From the NCBI GenBank assembly GCA_903923905.1, contig CAIXZH010000016.1, positions 1 to 36,758 of the forward strand: a stretch of DNA of 36,758 nt, given 5' to 3'. The notes under the pieces were generated by a model that was not told where the DNA came from, did no database searches, and saw nothing but the letters and a program-made list of their open reading frames with translations. Below are positions 28,520-34,893 of this stretch, in pieces. Positions within the stretch are counted from its first letter, which is position 1. The number at the start of each line of letters is the position of its first letter. Made by a program: the position numbers and the translations under genes. Source of the DNA: an uncultured Bacteroidia bacterium. GTDB lineage: Bacteria > Bacteroidota > Bacteroidia > Bacteroidales > Prolixibacteraceae.

Positions 28520-30307
28520 CTATAATTGTTTTAATTCCCTAAACCGTTTCTCAGTTTCCTTACCCCTGAATATAAACTTTTTGTCGTCCGGAAGCTGACC
28601 ATAAAGTCGCATAAAGTTAGTGACGCACGACGGAGCCGGAAAAACAATCGTCTGAACCCTGGTCAGATCCAAAGGCTTTAAATGATCAGGGTACTGATTC
28701 TCATAAAATACCAGGCGGATTACCTCCCAACCCAGCCTGGCTAAATTCTCGGGAAGTACTGGAAGACCCAGATTTGAACGGGGGATCAGCACACGACCTG
28801 CCGGAATTTTTTTCAGTTCAATCTCGCCGATCAACCCTTCGGAGCACTCTTCCCCAGGTTGTAAATCGGGCTTTATTCCATGTTTTTTAAGAGCGTCGGT
28901 GGTGAGCTTCCCCATGGATGCAATTTTGAGATGAGCCAGTGACCGGCTGTCTTTTCCATAAAACTCCAAAAAATCGAAAAAGAATTGAACCGTGTAACGG
29001 CTGGTAAAAAAGATCCAGTCAAACTGATCCAGATCCTGGATACATTTTTCAAGTTCGGGATTAGGTTCAATCCGGTTTATCTCAATCAATGGCTGGTGAA
29101 TCACAGTTCCCAGCGCATGGTATTTCTCTGCGGAAGTTCCGGTCACCAAAAACACAGGCTTTAGAACCTCAACCTCTGAATTGTTCCTAAGGGCAACCAC
29201 CTTGCCAATGACGATGATGATTGGTGTTGGAAATTTCTGATCACTTTGCGCAAGTTCTTCAAGGGTTGAGAAGAATTCCTGCTGATCGGGTAGCGATATA
29301 TTATGGACCAGCATTACGGGTGTGTCGGGTCTTTTGCCCTGAGCAATCGCCTTTTGGGCAATCATCCGGACATTAAAACCTCCCATAAAGCATACGAGAG
29401 TATCGGTTTCAGGAATCCTGACCGATTCCGAATGACCCGAAACAAACGCTACCGAAGATGAAATCCCCCGGTGTGTCAAGGAGATTTTCGTATAAGCTGC
29501 CACTGCAATACCTGCGGACACGCCGGGGATCACATTTACCTCCACAAAATTCCGGTGCAAATACTCGATCTCCTCACCCCCATGGGCAAAAACCATCGGA
29601 TCTCCACCCTTAAGCCGGACCACCCGTTTCCCGGCTTTGGCAGCATTAAACAATAGCCGGTTGATCCGGTCCTGTCTGAAGCTGTGGCAATCTTTCCGCT
29701 TCCCGACATAGAACTTTTCTGCACGATACCTCCCGGTGAAATTCTGATCGAGCAAATCGTCATGAAATATGATATCGGCCTTTTCAAGGGCTTTATCGCC
29801 GCCAAGTGTCAAAAGATCAGCATTACCGGGACCAAAACCCACCAGCGTAACTTTGCCGAATTTGCTTCGAACATCTTTCTGCCCGAAAAGTGTCTTTAAT
29901 TCAGAGTGTCCCGACCGGGCAACAATTACAGAATACCCGGCAAGGGGATCTGCCTCGATTGGTAATTGTTCCAAAGAAATATAATCAGAGCTTAACAACA
30001 GCTCATTCTGATCTCCTGAATCCAGTAAAGCGACCACTTCAAGACCTTCCGGTAGCGGATAAGGTAAATCAATGGCTTGAAAAACAGCAACATCAGAATT
30101 TCCGATAAGTAATGCATTGAAAACTCTTTCCGGATCAACCGACAAAGGATGTAAAATGGAAATTTGATTCTCCTCATCCGGGGCTGAGCCTATCGGAATT
30201 AATTCATATTCCAGATTGGGGAATAACTCCAATGTATCTGTCACATGCCTAAGGGCAAGTGGATTATTTAGACTGATTACTCGTAATTTCCCTTGTAAAA
30301 TGATCAT
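28520..30307 (-). CDS. cobA-hemD: Uroporphyrinogen-III C-methyltransferase/uroporphyrinogen-III synthase fusion with degenerate HemC-like N-terminal domain
   Basis: A 595-residue fusion acting on tetrapyrroles in the cytosol. I chose the ATG at 30307; an upstream in-frame start would run 80 bases into the preceding gene. Residues ~152-390 are a SUMT domain (GFGPGNADLLTLGGDKAL, VVRLKGGDPMVFAHGGEE, NVIPGVSAGIAVAAY, LTHRGISS) that methylates uroporphyrinogen III to precorrin-2. Residues ~395-595 are a HemD domain (DWIFFTSRYTVQFFFDFL; VLIPRSNLG) that makes uroporphyrinogen III. Residues 1-150 resemble part of porphobilinogen deaminase HemC: LRVISLNNPLAL, then SDVAVFQAIDLPYPLPEGL, where Asp80 aligns with the catalytic Asp84 of E. 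coli. The cofactor Cys domain and the Arg pair are missing. SUMT-HemD fusions are known; the HemC-like part is unusual. It follows the precorrin-2 dehydrogenase gene by 13 bases. Confidence 0.88.
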   Translation of the reverse strand: MIILQGKLRVISLNNPLALRHVTDTLELFPNLEYELIPIGSAPDEENQISILHPLSVDPERVFNALLIGNSDVAVFQAIDLPYPLPEGLEVVALLDSGDQNELLLSSDYISLEQLPIEADPLAGYSVIVARSGHSELKTLFGQKDVRSKFGKVTLVGFGPGNADLLTLGGDKALEKADIIFHDDLLDQNFTGRYRAEKFYVGKRKDCHSFRQDRINRLLFNAAKAGKRVVRLKGGDPMVFAHGGEEIEYLHRNFVEVNVIPGVSAGIAVAAYTKISLTHRGISSSVAFVSGHSESVRIPETDTLVCFMGGFNVRMIAQKAIAQGKRPDTPVMLVHNISLPDQQEFFSTLEELAQSDQKFPTPIIIVIGKVVALRNNSEVEVLKPVFLVTGTSAEKYHALGTVIHQPLIEINRIEPNPELEKCIQDLDQFDWIFFTSRYTVQFFFDFLEFYGKDSRSLAHLKIASMGKLTTDALKKHGIKPDLQPGEECSEGLIGEIELKKIPAGRVLIPRSNLGLPVLPENLARLGWEVIRLVFYENQYPDHLKPLDLTRVQTIVFPAPSCVTNFMRLYGQLPDDKKFIFRGKETEKRFRELKQL

Positions 30308-30320
30308 ATTATTTGTAGAA

Positions 30321-30791
30321 TTAAATAATAATCTTTCCGTCCTGAATAAGGGCAGTAATTTGATTCCGTATGGCGACCGATTGGAAGGCGTCCCGGCCAT
30401 TTGTGCCTACTGATATTGTTACGTGACCTTCATTATGGATAGCAGGGGAAACAAAATCACATAAAAACGGGGAGTCGCAAACACTGGTCAGAATCCCTAA
30501 AGCTTCGGCATCGGCCTTGATTTGGGCATTCAGTTCATGATTACCCGTGCAGACATAGACGAGGAAAAATCCGACTAAATCACTCTTTTCGTATTCCTTG
30601 GCAATGAAATTGAAAGGCAATTTTCTGATCTCTTCTGTAAATTCAGGAGCAACAACGGTGACCTGCTGGTCTAAGATCCGGGCCATGATCGTCCCCTTGT
30701 GAGTGGCCACCTTACCACCGCCAATCAATAAGATTTTCTTATTGGTCACATTGATTGAAATTGGTAAAAACTGAAGGTCCTCGCGTTTCAT
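30321..30791 (-). CDS. Precorrin-2 dehydrogenase (short CysG-N/Met8-like)
   Basis: Oxidises precorrin-2 to sirohydrochlorin with NAD, the step after SUMT in siroheme synthesis. The 156-residue product starts at the ATG at 30791 (MKREDLQFLPISIN). The longer in-frame start at 30821 adds no conserved residues. The Rossmann loop GGGKVATHKG (24-33) is followed by the region CDSPFLCDFVSPAIHN, whose Asp106 aligns with the active-site Asp of CysG (104/105). The protein stops soon after the SVGTNGRDAFQSVAIR segment. It therefore lacks most of the helical dimerisation/ferrochelatase part of CysG-N and Met8 (about 200 residues or more). It is co-directional with the SUMT-HemD gene and with cysI and cysJ. 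A palindrome at 30815-30827 lies just upstream. Confidence 0.87.
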   Translation of the reverse strand: MKREDLQFLPISINVTNKKILLIGGGKVATHKGTIMARILDQQVTVVAPEFTEEIRKLPFNFIAKEYEKSDLVGFFLVYVCTGNHELNAQIKADAEALGILTSVCDSPFLCDFVSPAIHNEGHVTISVGTNGRDAFQSVAIRNQITALIQDGKIII

Positions 30792-31156: not shown

Positions 31157-32860
31157 TTAATCATGAAAGTTCTTTCCGGCAGTGGTTGCTTTTAGATATC
31201 CTTTACGGATCACAAAATCTCCAAAATGTTCGTCTTTGGTCCGGCTTTGAGCAAAATGCTGAAGGATTGGTGAGAGTATATCAATAATTTGTTGCTCATT
31301 GACCATCTCCTTGTACAGCTTATTCAGCCGCTCACCGGCGAAACCTGCTCCTAAATACAGATTATAAAGCCCTGGAGCCCGGCCGACCAATCCGATCTCT
31401 GCCAAAAATGGTCTTCCGCAGCCGTTCGGACAACCGGTCATCCGAATGCTGATGGGCACTTGCAGCAGATCATTGGCTTCAAGGATTTTATCAATTTTAT
31501 CAATTAAGGTGGGCAGATAACGTTCTGCCTCTGCGAATGCCAGTCCGCAATAGGGCAAAGCCGCACAGGCAATTGAGTTTTGCCTGAGTAAGGAGATACC
31601 AGAGGCGTTAATCACATTGAATTTCTTTAATATCTTCTCAATCAAAGGTTTTTGTCCCTCAGAAACCTGGGCAATCACCACATTTTGATTTCCTGTAAGA
31701 ATAAACTTCCCCTGATGAATCAGGGCGATTTCGCGCAAGGCCGTTTTGGCCAGATATCCATTCCGGTTAATCAGTTTTCCCCCTTCTATAAATATGGTAT
31801 AGTGCCACATTCCGTCAGCACTTTTAATCCAGCCATACCGATCGCCCATGGTCTCAAACTCATATTCCTTGGTTGGAGCCAGATCAATCCCCTTAATCCG
31901 CTTAATCTCGGACCTGAAGAAATCGAGACCTACCCGGTCAACCGTATATTTCAAACGGGCGTTTTTACGGTCGGAGCGGTTCCCATGATCGCGCTGAAAA
32001 ATAAGTATCGCCTCTGCCACCTCAGCAATCTGCTCCTTCGGCACATAACCTACAACATCTGCAACCCGGGGATAGGTATCGGTATTTCCGAAGGTATAGG
32101 CCATTCCGCCCCCCACGGTCACATTGTAACCTGTTAGCTTCCCATTTTCAACGATTGCAATAAAGCCCAGATCATTGGATAAGACATCCGTATCGTTGCG
32201 GGGAGGAATGGCAATGGCAATTTTAAATTTACGGGGCAGGTAGAGTTTCCCGTAGAGCGGCTCCTCCTCTTTTTCACCACCTTCAATTAATTTACCATCG
32301 AGCCAGATCTCATGGTAGGCATTCGATCGGGGAAGAAGATGTGCCGAGATCCGTTTTGCATCTTCGGCAACCCCGGCATGAACGGGCGACTCAAACGGAT
32401 TTGCGGAACACATCACGTTCCGGTTCACATCGCCACAAGCCGCAATGGTATCGAACAACGATTTGTTGATCTCCTGCATCGTTTTTTTCAGATTGCGCTT
32501 AAGCACGCCATGGAACTGAAACGTCTGACGCGTAGTTAATTTCAAGGTCTTATCCCCATACTGATCCGATAAACTATCCATGGATAGCCACTGTTCGGGG
32601 GTTGCAATGCCGCCGGGAATCCGAACCCTTATCAGGAAAGAGTAAAGCGGCTCAAGTTTCTGACGTTTACGTTCCTCGTCCAGATCGCGGTCCTGTTGCT
32701 GATAAGTGCCATGAAACTTAATCAACACCTGATCGTCAGGCTGCATACCACCGGTCAGCGGATCAATCAGGCTCTCCTTAATCGTTCCCCGGAGGTAGTT
32801 ACTCTTATCTTTTATAATCTCAATTGGAGAAGGGGCTGGAATATCTTGTTCGTTATGCAT
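31157..32860 (-). CDS. cysI: Sulfite reductase hemoprotein, beta subunit
   Basis: Reduces sulfite to sulfide with six electrons in assimilatory sulfur metabolism; it carries siroheme coupled to a [4Fe-4S] cluster. The 567-residue length matches E. coli CysI. The N-terminal parachute-type repeat (FLIRVRIPGGIATPEQWL, LTTRQTFQFHGVLK, NVMCSANPFESPVH) and the cluster-binding motifs are both visible. The first is ACAALPYCGLAFAEAE near 427-442, with Cys spaced by five residues. The second is RMTGCPNGCGRPFLAEIG near 471-488, with Cys-x3-Cys. This is the siroheme client of the two genes downstream. CysJ is encoded upstream on the same strand after a 230-base gap that contains repeat copy B. The ATG at 32860 has no competitor in the aligned region. 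Confidence 0.95.
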   Translation of the reverse strand: MHNEQDIPAPSPIEIIKDKSNYLRGTIKESLIDPLTGGMQPDDQVLIKFHGTYQQQDRDLDEERKRQKLEPLYSFLIRVRIPGGIATPEQWLSMDSLSDQYGDKTLKLTTRQTFQFHGVLKRNLKKTMQEINKSLFDTIAACGDVNRNVMCSANPFESPVHAGVAEDAKRISAHLLPRSNAYHEIWLDGKLIEGGEKEEEPLYGKLYLPRKFKIAIAIPPRNDTDVLSNDLGFIAIVENGKLTGYNVTVGGGMAYTFGNTDTYPRVADVVGYVPKEQIAEVAEAILIFQRDHGNRSDRKNARLKYTVDRVGLDFFRSEIKRIKGIDLAPTKEYEFETMGDRYGWIKSADGMWHYTIFIEGGKLINRNGYLAKTALREIALIHQGKFILTGNQNVVIAQVSEGQKPLIEKILKKFNVINASGISLLRQNSIACAALPYCGLAFAEAERYLPTLIDKIDKILEANDLLQVPISIRMTGCPNGCGRPFLAEIGLVGRAPGLYNLYLGAGFAGERLNKLYKEMVNEQQIIDILSPILQHFAQSRTKDEHFGDFVIRKGYLKATTAGKNFHD

Positions 32861-33090: not shown

Positions 33091-34893
33091 TTAATACACA
33101 TCCAGCTGCAACCGTTTTTCTTTCTGCATGTTAGTAACATATTCCAGTGCACTTTCATTGTTCAGGTCACCCTCCTTTTCAATAATTTTGACCAGGGCCT
33201 TCTGCACATCGCCCGCCATTTTATTCATGTCGCCGCAGATGTAAAAGTGCGCGCCCTCCTGAAGCCAACGAAACAATTCTTTGGAATTCTCAATTAAACG
33301 ATCCTGAACATACTCTTTTTTCGAACCATCACGCGAAAAAGCCACGTTCATTTTGGTCAATGCGCCAGATTTCAGGAAGTTTTGCCACTCAGCCTGATAT
33401 AAAAACTCAGTTTCAAAGTTACGGTTTCCAAAGAAAAGCCAGCTTTTTCCCCGCTTCTCCGACAATTCCCGGTGCTGAACAAATGCCCGGTATGGGGCAA
33501 TTCCGGTCCCGGCACCAATCATTACGATCGGTGTCTCCTCATTTTTAGGTAACCTGAAATTCGGATTGGATTCAATAAAAATGGGGACATGCTCATCTTC
33601 AACCGCCACCTCAGAAAGGTAGGAGGAACATGCACCCCGTTTTGCCCTTCCGCTTTGTTCATAATTGACCACGCTCACCGTCAGATGCAATTCTCCCGGA
33701 CAGGCCAGTGGACTTGAAGATATGGAGTAAGAACGGGGCTGAATAGGCCGAAGCAGTTTTGACAATTCTGCAGAAGTTACTTTCGCCGGGAAATCCTGGA
33801 ATAAATCCACAATGTCACGACCGTACAAATATTCCTTAAATTTCGAGGCATTCTCAATCAGCTTCTTAAGCTTCGTATTCGGCGCAAAAGCAAGGTATCG
33901 GCTGGCGACATCGGTAGTTATCTTGGAGAGTTCAAAATTCCGGCGAAGTGAATCGTAAAGGGTGGTTTTGACTCCATTTACTTCCAGCTCCTCTTCTCCA
34001 TTCAGCCCGGTAACTTTAAGAACTTCGTTAATTAATTCCGGTGGATTTAATGGGATCACCCCTGCCGAGTCACCCGGTTCATAGGTCAATCCTTTGTCGT
34101 CAGTGGCTAGTTCCAGATGAAGGGTTTGCCGCTCACTTGGCTTACCGTGGAGGGTTATCTTTTCGTATACAGGGGCTTTAAATGGGTTCTTCTTCGAATA
34201 TTTAGGGGTTTCTGTGTTTATTTCATTCGAAGCTGTAACCTGATTTGCAGTTGAACCCTGTGATCCATTGACCAGTTCACCTCCAAAACTGTTCAGTGTC
34301 GATTTTATCCATTCATCAGCAGGTTGTTCAAAATCGAGATCGCAGGTGAGAACAGGAACCAGACGCTTTGCCCCTAATTTTTCAAGTTGCTCATCAAAAT
34401 CCCTACCGGTTTTACAGAACTGGAAATAGCTCGAATCGCCCAGTGCAAGTACGGCAAAATTGACCCCTTCGAGTTTAGGCGCCCGTTTACCAAAGATAAA
34501 TCCGTGTAACTCTTGTGCCGAGAATGGGGGAACTCCTTCACCATGGGTGGAAACAATGACCAGCAGATTTTTCTCTGCCTGCAGGTCACGGGTTCGGTAG
34601 GTCTCCATATTTTTCAGAACAACATTTAGCCCCTGAGCTTCAGCCAGAATTTTTGCCTTCTTTGCCAGCCTTTCGCCGTTTCCTGTGCGCGAACCATAAA
34701 GGATAGTCAGCACTGATTGAGCTGAAGTAGTTGCAATTTCAACCTGCTGACTTATCTGTTCTCCGTTTCGTTCCGAAAATCCGGCCAGATAACCCGCTAC
34801 CCATATCTGCTGTTCTTTGCTGAGAGATCCTGTTAGTTTTGTCAGAAGTTCGAGTTGTTCTGCTGACAATGCCCCTGATAAGCTATTTTCCAC
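33091..34893 (-). CDS. cysJ: Sulfite reductase (NADPH) flavoprotein, alpha subunit
   Basis: Passes electrons from NADPH through FAD and FMN to CysI. The 600-residue product has the CysJ N-terminal helix (LSAEQLELLTKL) and an FMN flavodoxin domain (about 61-205) with VLTILYGSRTGNGERLAK and VSTHGEGVPP. An FAD/connecting domain (about 235-450) shows GDSAGVIPLNPP, RSYSISSSP and RGACSSYL. The NADPH domain has GAGTGIAPYRAFVQH, FFGNRN and YICGDMNKMAGDV, ending in the typical aromatic tail LDVY. Family length and domain order are normal. It precedes cysI on the same strand but with 230 bases between, so the two may have separate promoters. A CAAAACTA at 34919-34926 is a -7 candidate for this gene. 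Confidence 0.94.
   Translation of the reverse strand: MENSLSGALSAEQLELLTKLTGSLSKEQQIWVAGYLAGFSERNGEQISQQVEIATTSAQSVLTILYGSRTGNGERLAKKAKILAEAQGLNVVLKNMETYRTRDLQAEKNLLVIVSTHGEGVPPFSAQELHGFIFGKRAPKLEGVNFAVLALGDSSYFQFCKTGRDFDEQLEKLGAKRLVPVLTCDLDFEQPADEWIKSTLNSFGGELVNGSQGSTANQVTASNEINTETPKYSKKNPFKAPVYEKITLHGKPSERQTLHLELATDDKGLTYEPGDSAGVIPLNPPELINEVLKVTGLNGEEELEVNGVKTTLYDSLRRNFELSKITTDVASRYLAFAPNTKLKKLIENASKFKEYLYGRDIVDLFQDFPAKVTSAELSKLLRPIQPRSYSISSSPLACPGELHLTVSVVNYEQSGRAKRGACSSYLSEVAVEDEHVPIFIESNPNFRLPKNEETPIVMIGAGTGIAPYRAFVQHRELSEKRGKSWLFFGNRNFETEFLYQAEWQNFLKSGALTKMNVAFSRDGSKKEYVQDRLIENSKELFRWLQEGAHFYICGDMNKMAGDVQKALVKIIEKEGDLNNESALEYVTNMQKEKRLQLDVY

Follow-up and report, generated by a model that had tools for sequence, protein, structure and literature searches.

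Hydroxymethylbilane synthase (porphobilinogen deaminase, HemC) is described in PMC3945110 as a three-domain enzyme that carries its dipyrromethane cofactor on Cys242, in the turn of residues 240-243. Movement of Cys242, which pulls the chain, is a current mechanistic model (PMC8561815). Across titles and abstract openings of the open-access literature, no HemC lacking domain 3 or using another cofactor cysteine is reported. Bifunctional SUMT-HemD (CobA-HemD) proteins are a second described system. The NCBIfam model NF002202 (PRK01066), which we take to represent chlamydial HemC, spans 241 positions, and from this length the HemC group behind it probably lacks domain 3 too.

The window, the whole stretch of 36,758 nucleotides analysed here, encodes a protein with the same domains in the same order as SUMT-HemD proteins, to which a relic of HemC domain 1 has been added in front (Table 1). 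E. coli HemC (1ah5/1pda) shares its fold both with this relic and with domains 1 and 2 of its putative parents, which are two-domain HemC proteins (D1D2) of other Bacteroidales. These parents have the catalytic Asp84 and most pocket residues in common with the E. coli enzyme, but lack domain 3, Cys242, R131, K55 and K59 and have a cysteine at position 172; the relic in the window has lost domain 2 as well. The explanation as a whole, that of a SUMT-HemD protein with a relic cap derived from a compact active HemC, Cys172 being the preferred tether, is given a probability of about 0.75. Within it, descent of the domain from a two-domain HemC is highly probable.

Table 1. Coordinates of features in the window and of short HemA frames at compact clusters
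Feature	Position	Strand	Evidence or remark
SUMT-HemD fusion with HemC domain-1 relic at the front	28520..30307	-	595 aa; order relic, SUMT, HemD
HemC domain 1, first segment, residues ~1-115	29963..30307	-	PF01379 28.8 bits; predicted secondary structure
Junction of missing domain 2 (~68 residues)	29955..29970	-	Comparison with relative L037
HemC domain-1 return segment (strand 125-131, helix 135-142), directly before SUMT	29858..29962	-	Model and profile comparison
SUMT/CobA domain (uroporphyrinogen-III C-methyltransferase)	29186..29857	-	TIGR01469 230.1 bits, cut-off 185; PF00590 1e-41
HemD domain (uroporphyrinogen-III synthase)	28532..29110	-	PF02602 2.1e-38, 132.2 bits, cut-off 27.5
SirC-like precorrin-2 dehydrogenase/ferrochelatase candidate	30321..30791	-	PF13241 4.6e-22; 24% to N-terminal part of E. 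coli CysG
CysI-like sulfite/nitrite reductase family protein (siroheme user)	31157..32860	-	PF01077 1.6e-45; PF03460
CysJ-like flavoprotein	33091..34893	-	PF00258, PF00667, PF00175
Short HemA frame, L142	10611-11513
Short HemA frame, L135	7268-8155
Short HemA frame, L138	9684-10592
Short HemA frame, L133	11062-11967

Scores above the family cut-offs place the protein in both the SUMT (TIGR01469) and the HemD (PF02602) families, and both domains look intact. The gene order in the window is CysJ-CysI-SirC-[D1-SUMT-HemD], where D1 is the domain-1 relic, and that at locus L142 is CysJ-CysI-SirC-HemA-[D1D2-SUMT-HemD]-HemB-HemL, with one frame of no assigned identity after HemA. The CysI-like protein of the window is 77% identical to its counterpart adjoining the two-domain fusion of L142, and the CysJ-like flavoprotein 63%. 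From domains and context, the enzyme would take its hydroxymethylbilane from a separate canonical HemC-HemD, close and methylate it, and pass precorrin-2 to the SirC-like protein and CysI. Such a HemC-HemD fusion (L001, 570 aa) is complete in the same genome, as the preliminary description had proposed to look for, and lies next to HemA, HemB, HemL and a gene for URO-D (HemE). It resembles the window protein in joining HemC to HemD; unlike it, L001 has a full three-domain HemC with the cofactor-cysteine domain, has no SUMT and belongs to a separate heme operon. It also contains the only domain 3 (PF03900) match of the genome.

The fusion has an in-frame ATG at nearly the same place in all 12 members of the genus that carry the relic (weak support, as the rows were cut at that ATG), and a frame begun at the ATG further upstream, at 30400, would run into the preceding gene. 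A translation start inside the SUMT domain was considered and found no support, since dN/dS of domain 1 is below 1 and an in-frame ATG precedes the first strand in 12 of 12 rows, cut there as noted.

The HemC origin of residues 1-150 (29858-30307), claimed from the letters alone, was borne out by several searches. The score against PF01379 was 28.8 bits (cut-off 22.1), and phmmer aligned residues 4-117 with residues 2-121 of E. coli HemC (E ~1e-5); in the TIGR00212 hemC equivalog the relic reached 25.4 bits, under the cut-off of 164. AlphaFold2, run on residues 1-150 with 12 sequences of the genus, gave a modest model (pLDDT 72.0, pTM 0.68) with strands 8-13, 34-39, 73-77 and 89-96 and helices 16-26 and 59-68, followed by strand 125-131 and helix 135-142. 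In Foldseek the first 32 matches to this model were all HemC structures, with TM scores by query length of 0.41-0.60 and an rmsd that was often high, so the structural check proposed earlier returned a HemC fold with modest scores. The motif pairings of SLEQLP with SLDALP and of DVAVFQAIDLP with DIAVHSMKDVP hold, and the SSLRR region and domain 3 are indeed absent, there being no PF03900 match at the locus. Asp80 of the window copy does occupy the place of Asp84, but as a conserved residue it fails, the 12 genus members having D in seven, E in four and S in one. Likewise, the arginine at position 11 is absent from the window copy (Leu), but Arg is still found in two of the 12.

The relic is more than the first half of HemC for which it had been taken. 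Many Foldseek alignments of the 150-residue query ran over 216-230 columns, a length expected if a stretch is skipped, but their rmsd was high; other alignments covered only 92-101 columns. A profile of the relics aligned by hhalign with one of relatives keeping domain 2 (E 8.6e-39, 147 columns) with one gap of 68 columns. This single gap, together with the returning strand and helix, indicates that domain 1 is whole, residues ~116-150 being its return segment, and that domain 2 (~68 residues) was cut out. With it went the domain 2 arginines R131, R132, R149, R155 and R176. In L037 the bases AGAATTACC are present at both ends of the stretch missing from the window, 68 codons apart, so that an in-frame deletion with short direct repeats as its end points is, from this one relative, a plausible cause of the loss of domain 2.

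The 140 genomes of the family were surveyed, as the preliminary description had suggested; 18 members of the genus of the window were listed, and 12 of them have the relic. Outside this genus, the matches listed were on frames of the lengths expected for HemC or HemC-HemD, judged by length. The relic frame is open in all 12 bearers. Only the window copy passes Pfam PF01379; six others are listed below the cut-off (E up to 0.09) and five are not listed, and with a profile built here from canonical HemC, 10 of the 12 lie above the HMMER inclusion line. All 66 pairs of the 12 were computed for dN/dS and examined where SUMT identity reached 0.82 or more; in most of the pairs examined, synonymous sites were saturated. 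In the four pairs with usable divergence, dN/dS was 0.21-0.34 for domain 1 versus 0.02-0.08 for SUMT, a range that leaves out the near-identical pair L009/L010 (domain 1, 0.11). Domain 1 also had several times the dN/dS of HemD in three of these four pairs, the order being reversed in L011/L014 (HemD 0.30, domain 1 0.21). Domain 1 is thus kept folded, but loosely, under weakened purifying selection, and presumably persists as a folded N-terminal cap.

L014 and L011 (G081 and G082) have shorter relic fusions (frames of 545-550 aa), whose HemD parts are only 54% identical to each other (dN/dS 0.30), which may mean that HemD is decaying in them as well.

Canonical HemC with domain 3 was found in 11 of the 12 relic-bearing genomes. 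The exception, G088, is rated 97% complete and has the relic fusion; HemC, domain 3 and HemB were not found in searches of its genome.

An ancestor joining HemC, SUMT and HemD had been postulated, and L037-L039 and others still carry all three; the parent differs from the ordinary HemC first envisaged. A tree on domain-1 columns, with 25 rows of the two-domain form, 11 of relics and 41 of canonical HemC, sets the first two kinds apart from the third with support of 100/100. It was computed without L012, L055 and L163; of the canonical rows, 13 of the 47 at loci numbered up to L100 and 24 of the 30 at later loci are also not in it. The relics branch beside L037 in two groups (97/52, an open fork), with few columns and three relics on long branches. 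The SUMT-HemD part of the window protein is 64% identical to that of L037.

HemC domains 1 and 2 without domain 3 occur in Bacteroidales relatives alone or fused to SUMT-HemD or HemA. In a sample of 393 genomes of the order, 11 had frames spanning the query into SUMT. Two more were positive: in G430 the form stands alone, and in G358 a contig end cuts it. Searches of two families added 12 genomes: in f53, seven of 18 were positive, six of them new, and in f17, seven of 101, again six new, one of which (G954) is partial. The protein of L054 is a stand-alone two-domain HemC, 217 aa long when counted from its ATG. Judged by frame length (221-261 aa), five of the six kin in f53 are stand-alone as well; in the sixth, L168 (7847-9373, 508 aa), HemA is fused ahead of the two-domain HemC within a heme operon. 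L051/L137 (980 aa) join HemA, D1D2, SUMT and HemD, four enzymes in one chain. The model of D1D2 from L037 is confident (pLDDT 92.9, pTM 0.87), and among solved structures it matches E. coli HemC 1ah5 best (E 1.6e-22, TM 0.83). Three of three two-domain proteins tested passed TIGR00212 (172.6, 170.5 and 181.8 bits, cut-off 164), so standard annotation would probably call them HemC without remark, and three tested matched NF002202 with 165-174 bits, below its cut-off of 251.

The form was also sought more widely. In 392 genomes of the phylum the best 30 loci had frames 313-327 aa long and scores no higher than 166.5 bits, none of them near the 311-385 bits of two-domain copies with both domains complete, 14 of which built the model. 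Of 83 matches in plasmid records, the 20 listed were all below 40% identity.

For the active site, 34 E. coli positions were compared, a selection made from established HemC residues and from the contact table in PMC3945110. In the first 15 two-domain sequences, 16 of the 34 are invariant where covered: R11, S13, Q19, D46, H80, S81, K83, D84, S128, S129, R132, R149, R155, R176, Q198 and G199. R131, K55, K59 and W18 are not kept, M82 is replaced by Ala, and R232 and C242 are absent. In all 27 aligned copies Asp84, R11, R132, R149, R155 and R176 are kept where covered, except for S149 and C176 in L162. R131, whose mutation to leucine in E. coli HemC reportedly affects cofactor binding (PMC3945110), is replaced in 27 of 27, and Cys242 is absent from the same 27; L055 is cut by a contig end.

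Position 172 (E. coli numbering) is Cys in 25 of the 26 readable two-domain copies and Phe in one. Among 77 HemC frames with Cys242 it is never Cys (A in 73, S in two, T in one, V in one). Clustering at 90% identity, which left 25 two-domain and 47 canonical representatives, gave the same outcome. Cys172 is the only cysteine of D1D2 in L037, L043, L038 and L049. In simulations of the E. coli enzyme, A172 touches the pyrrole chain at the P4M, P5M and P6M stages (Table 1 of PMC3945110), and the nearness of Cys172 to the chain is taken from this published E. coli contact table.

Counts of genomes with the two-domain form refer to the 26 in which position 172 of D1D2 can be read, G491 and G528 being one genome counted once; G358, outside the 26, has a contig end before position 172, and domain 3 and HemB were not found there. 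Domain 3 (PF03900, E up to 0.1) was not found in 24 of the 26 and was found in G511 and G1018; HemB is present in 21 of the 24. Many of these genomes are fragmented or incomplete (G1017, 85%), and an absent gene may mean a missing contig. In the 18 genomes of genus g75, these searches found the two-domain form in seven, domain 3 in six others, neither in five and both in none. CysJ, CysI, a SirC-like gene, HemA, the fusion, HemB and HemL are clustered together at L137 (HemA fused), L138 and L142; the L135 cluster has no SirC-like gene, and no CysIJ occurs in the stretch read at L133 and L169. L140 and L168 have heme-type genes without a SUMT fusion, namely URO-D, an amine-oxidase-family protein (Pfam), HemA, HemD, HemB and HemL, and D1D2 is the only HemC-like gene seen there. 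The amine-oxidase-family protein is presumably HemG/HemY-like.

G522, G529 (L039/L170) and G942, one clade with support of 99/99, have an intact two-domain fusion and a SirC-like gene, with no HemB match in the genome; their D1D2 would need porphobilinogen from outside.

Decay of the two-domain form goes with a canonical HemC. G1018 has a canonical HemA-HemC-HemD-HemB-HemL operon (L165), and its two-domain copy, L162, has N13, D128, S149, F172 and C176, with neither HemB nor HemL beside it in the 18 kb read. It is the only one of the 12 genomes added by the family searches with domain 3; in G1017 of the same genus (85% complete) there is no domain 3 and none of the five residues has changed. 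A counter-example at the level of the site is G511 (L141, 7569-8984), whose two-domain HemC-SUMT keeps an intact site with Cys172 despite a canonical operon on another contig. This protein has no HemD and a 36-position HemB remnant lies at the 3' end; given these, it may be at the start of decay. Of the copies whose covered part is intact, 24 are without domain 3 in the genome and one is with it; of the degenerate copies (G1018 and the 12 relics), 12 are with domain 3 and one is without. The Fisher p of 6e-8 is uncorrected for kinship and overstates the support, as there were about three independent decay events. The relic of the window would have arisen in a lineage that also has the canonical heme operon, where the compact siroheme cluster would have lost the neighbouring HemA, HemB and HemL genes.

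Several other explanations bear on the relic itself. That it came straight from an ordinary HemC, truncated while fused to SUMT-HemD, as its match to the canonical PF01379 model might suggest, is hardly credible given the grouping of the 11 relics tested with two-domain rows (100/100), the 64% identity of the SUMT-HemD part to that of L037 and the hhalign match to the two-domain profile (E 8.6e-39). The suggestion that the remnant binds hydroxymethylbilane finds no support, given the loss of the domain 2 arginines and, mostly, of Arg11. In the wider form that domain 1 still works, by docking the canonical HemC or holding hydroxymethylbilane for HemD, it would account for a frame open in 12 of 12, a dN/dS below 1 and a sequence predicted to fold. 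The same constraint is also accounted for by a cap whose one role is to help folding, and with domain 2 and its arginines gone, Arg11 in two of 12, D, E or S in the place of Asp84 and a domain 1 dN/dS several times that of SUMT in the four usable pairs and that of HemD in three, a retained job is improbable. The preliminary description was right that an apparently dead, HemC-derived domain stands ahead of SUMT-HemD; as read here, that domain is a non-catalytic relic.

The nature of the parent is a separate matter. A two-domain protein that is non-catalytic, binding tetrapyrroles or regulatory, while an undetected enzyme makes hydroxymethylbilane, is quite improbable, although it fits the lack of Cys242, R131, K55 and K59, and the bilobed fold also matches periplasmic binding proteins, far below HemC. 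Such a role sits badly with the 16 of the chosen active-site positions that never vary, where covered, among the first 15 sequences, with D1D2 as the sole HemC-like gene seen in heme and siroheme clusters, and with its decay where canonical HemC is present. The two-domain parent is therefore regarded as very likely an active hydroxymethylbilane synthase, judging from its residues and setting; with Asp84 and most of the pocket kept, it probably makes the hydroxymethylbilane of those cells. If it is active, Cys172 is somewhat favoured as the tether: a pyrrole chain or dipyrromethane primer would be attached to Cys172 inside the cleft, in place of Cys242. An enzyme working without a covalent primer, with Cys172 structural or tethering only the four substrate pyrroles, is unlikely; R131 is lost and the part holding the dipyrromethane tail is gone, as such an enzyme would have it, but Cys172 is near-invariant and was lost in G1018 together with S13, S128, R149 and R176, which favours a chemical role of one kind or another. 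Cys172 could be structural instead of chemical.

The two-domain family would thus be a variant HemC, shorter than the known enzyme and with its cysteine relocated. It is an evenly balanced proposition that Bacteroidales have a compact, active hydroxymethylbilane synthase which dropped the cofactor domain, moved its anchoring cysteine from Cys242 to position 172 deep in the cleft and possibly tethers the tetrapyrrole without a dipyrromethane primer. If true, the same chemistry without domain 3 would put to the test what the mechanism can do without, including how the chain is moved and counted to four. The window is then an evolutionary epilogue, recording what became of the compact form where the canonical enzyme is also present.

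HemA also differs between the two kinds of cluster. At compact clusters it is ~295-302 aa long versus 415 aa for the canonical HemA of the window genome (Table 1), and the short form may be without the C-terminal dimerisation part.
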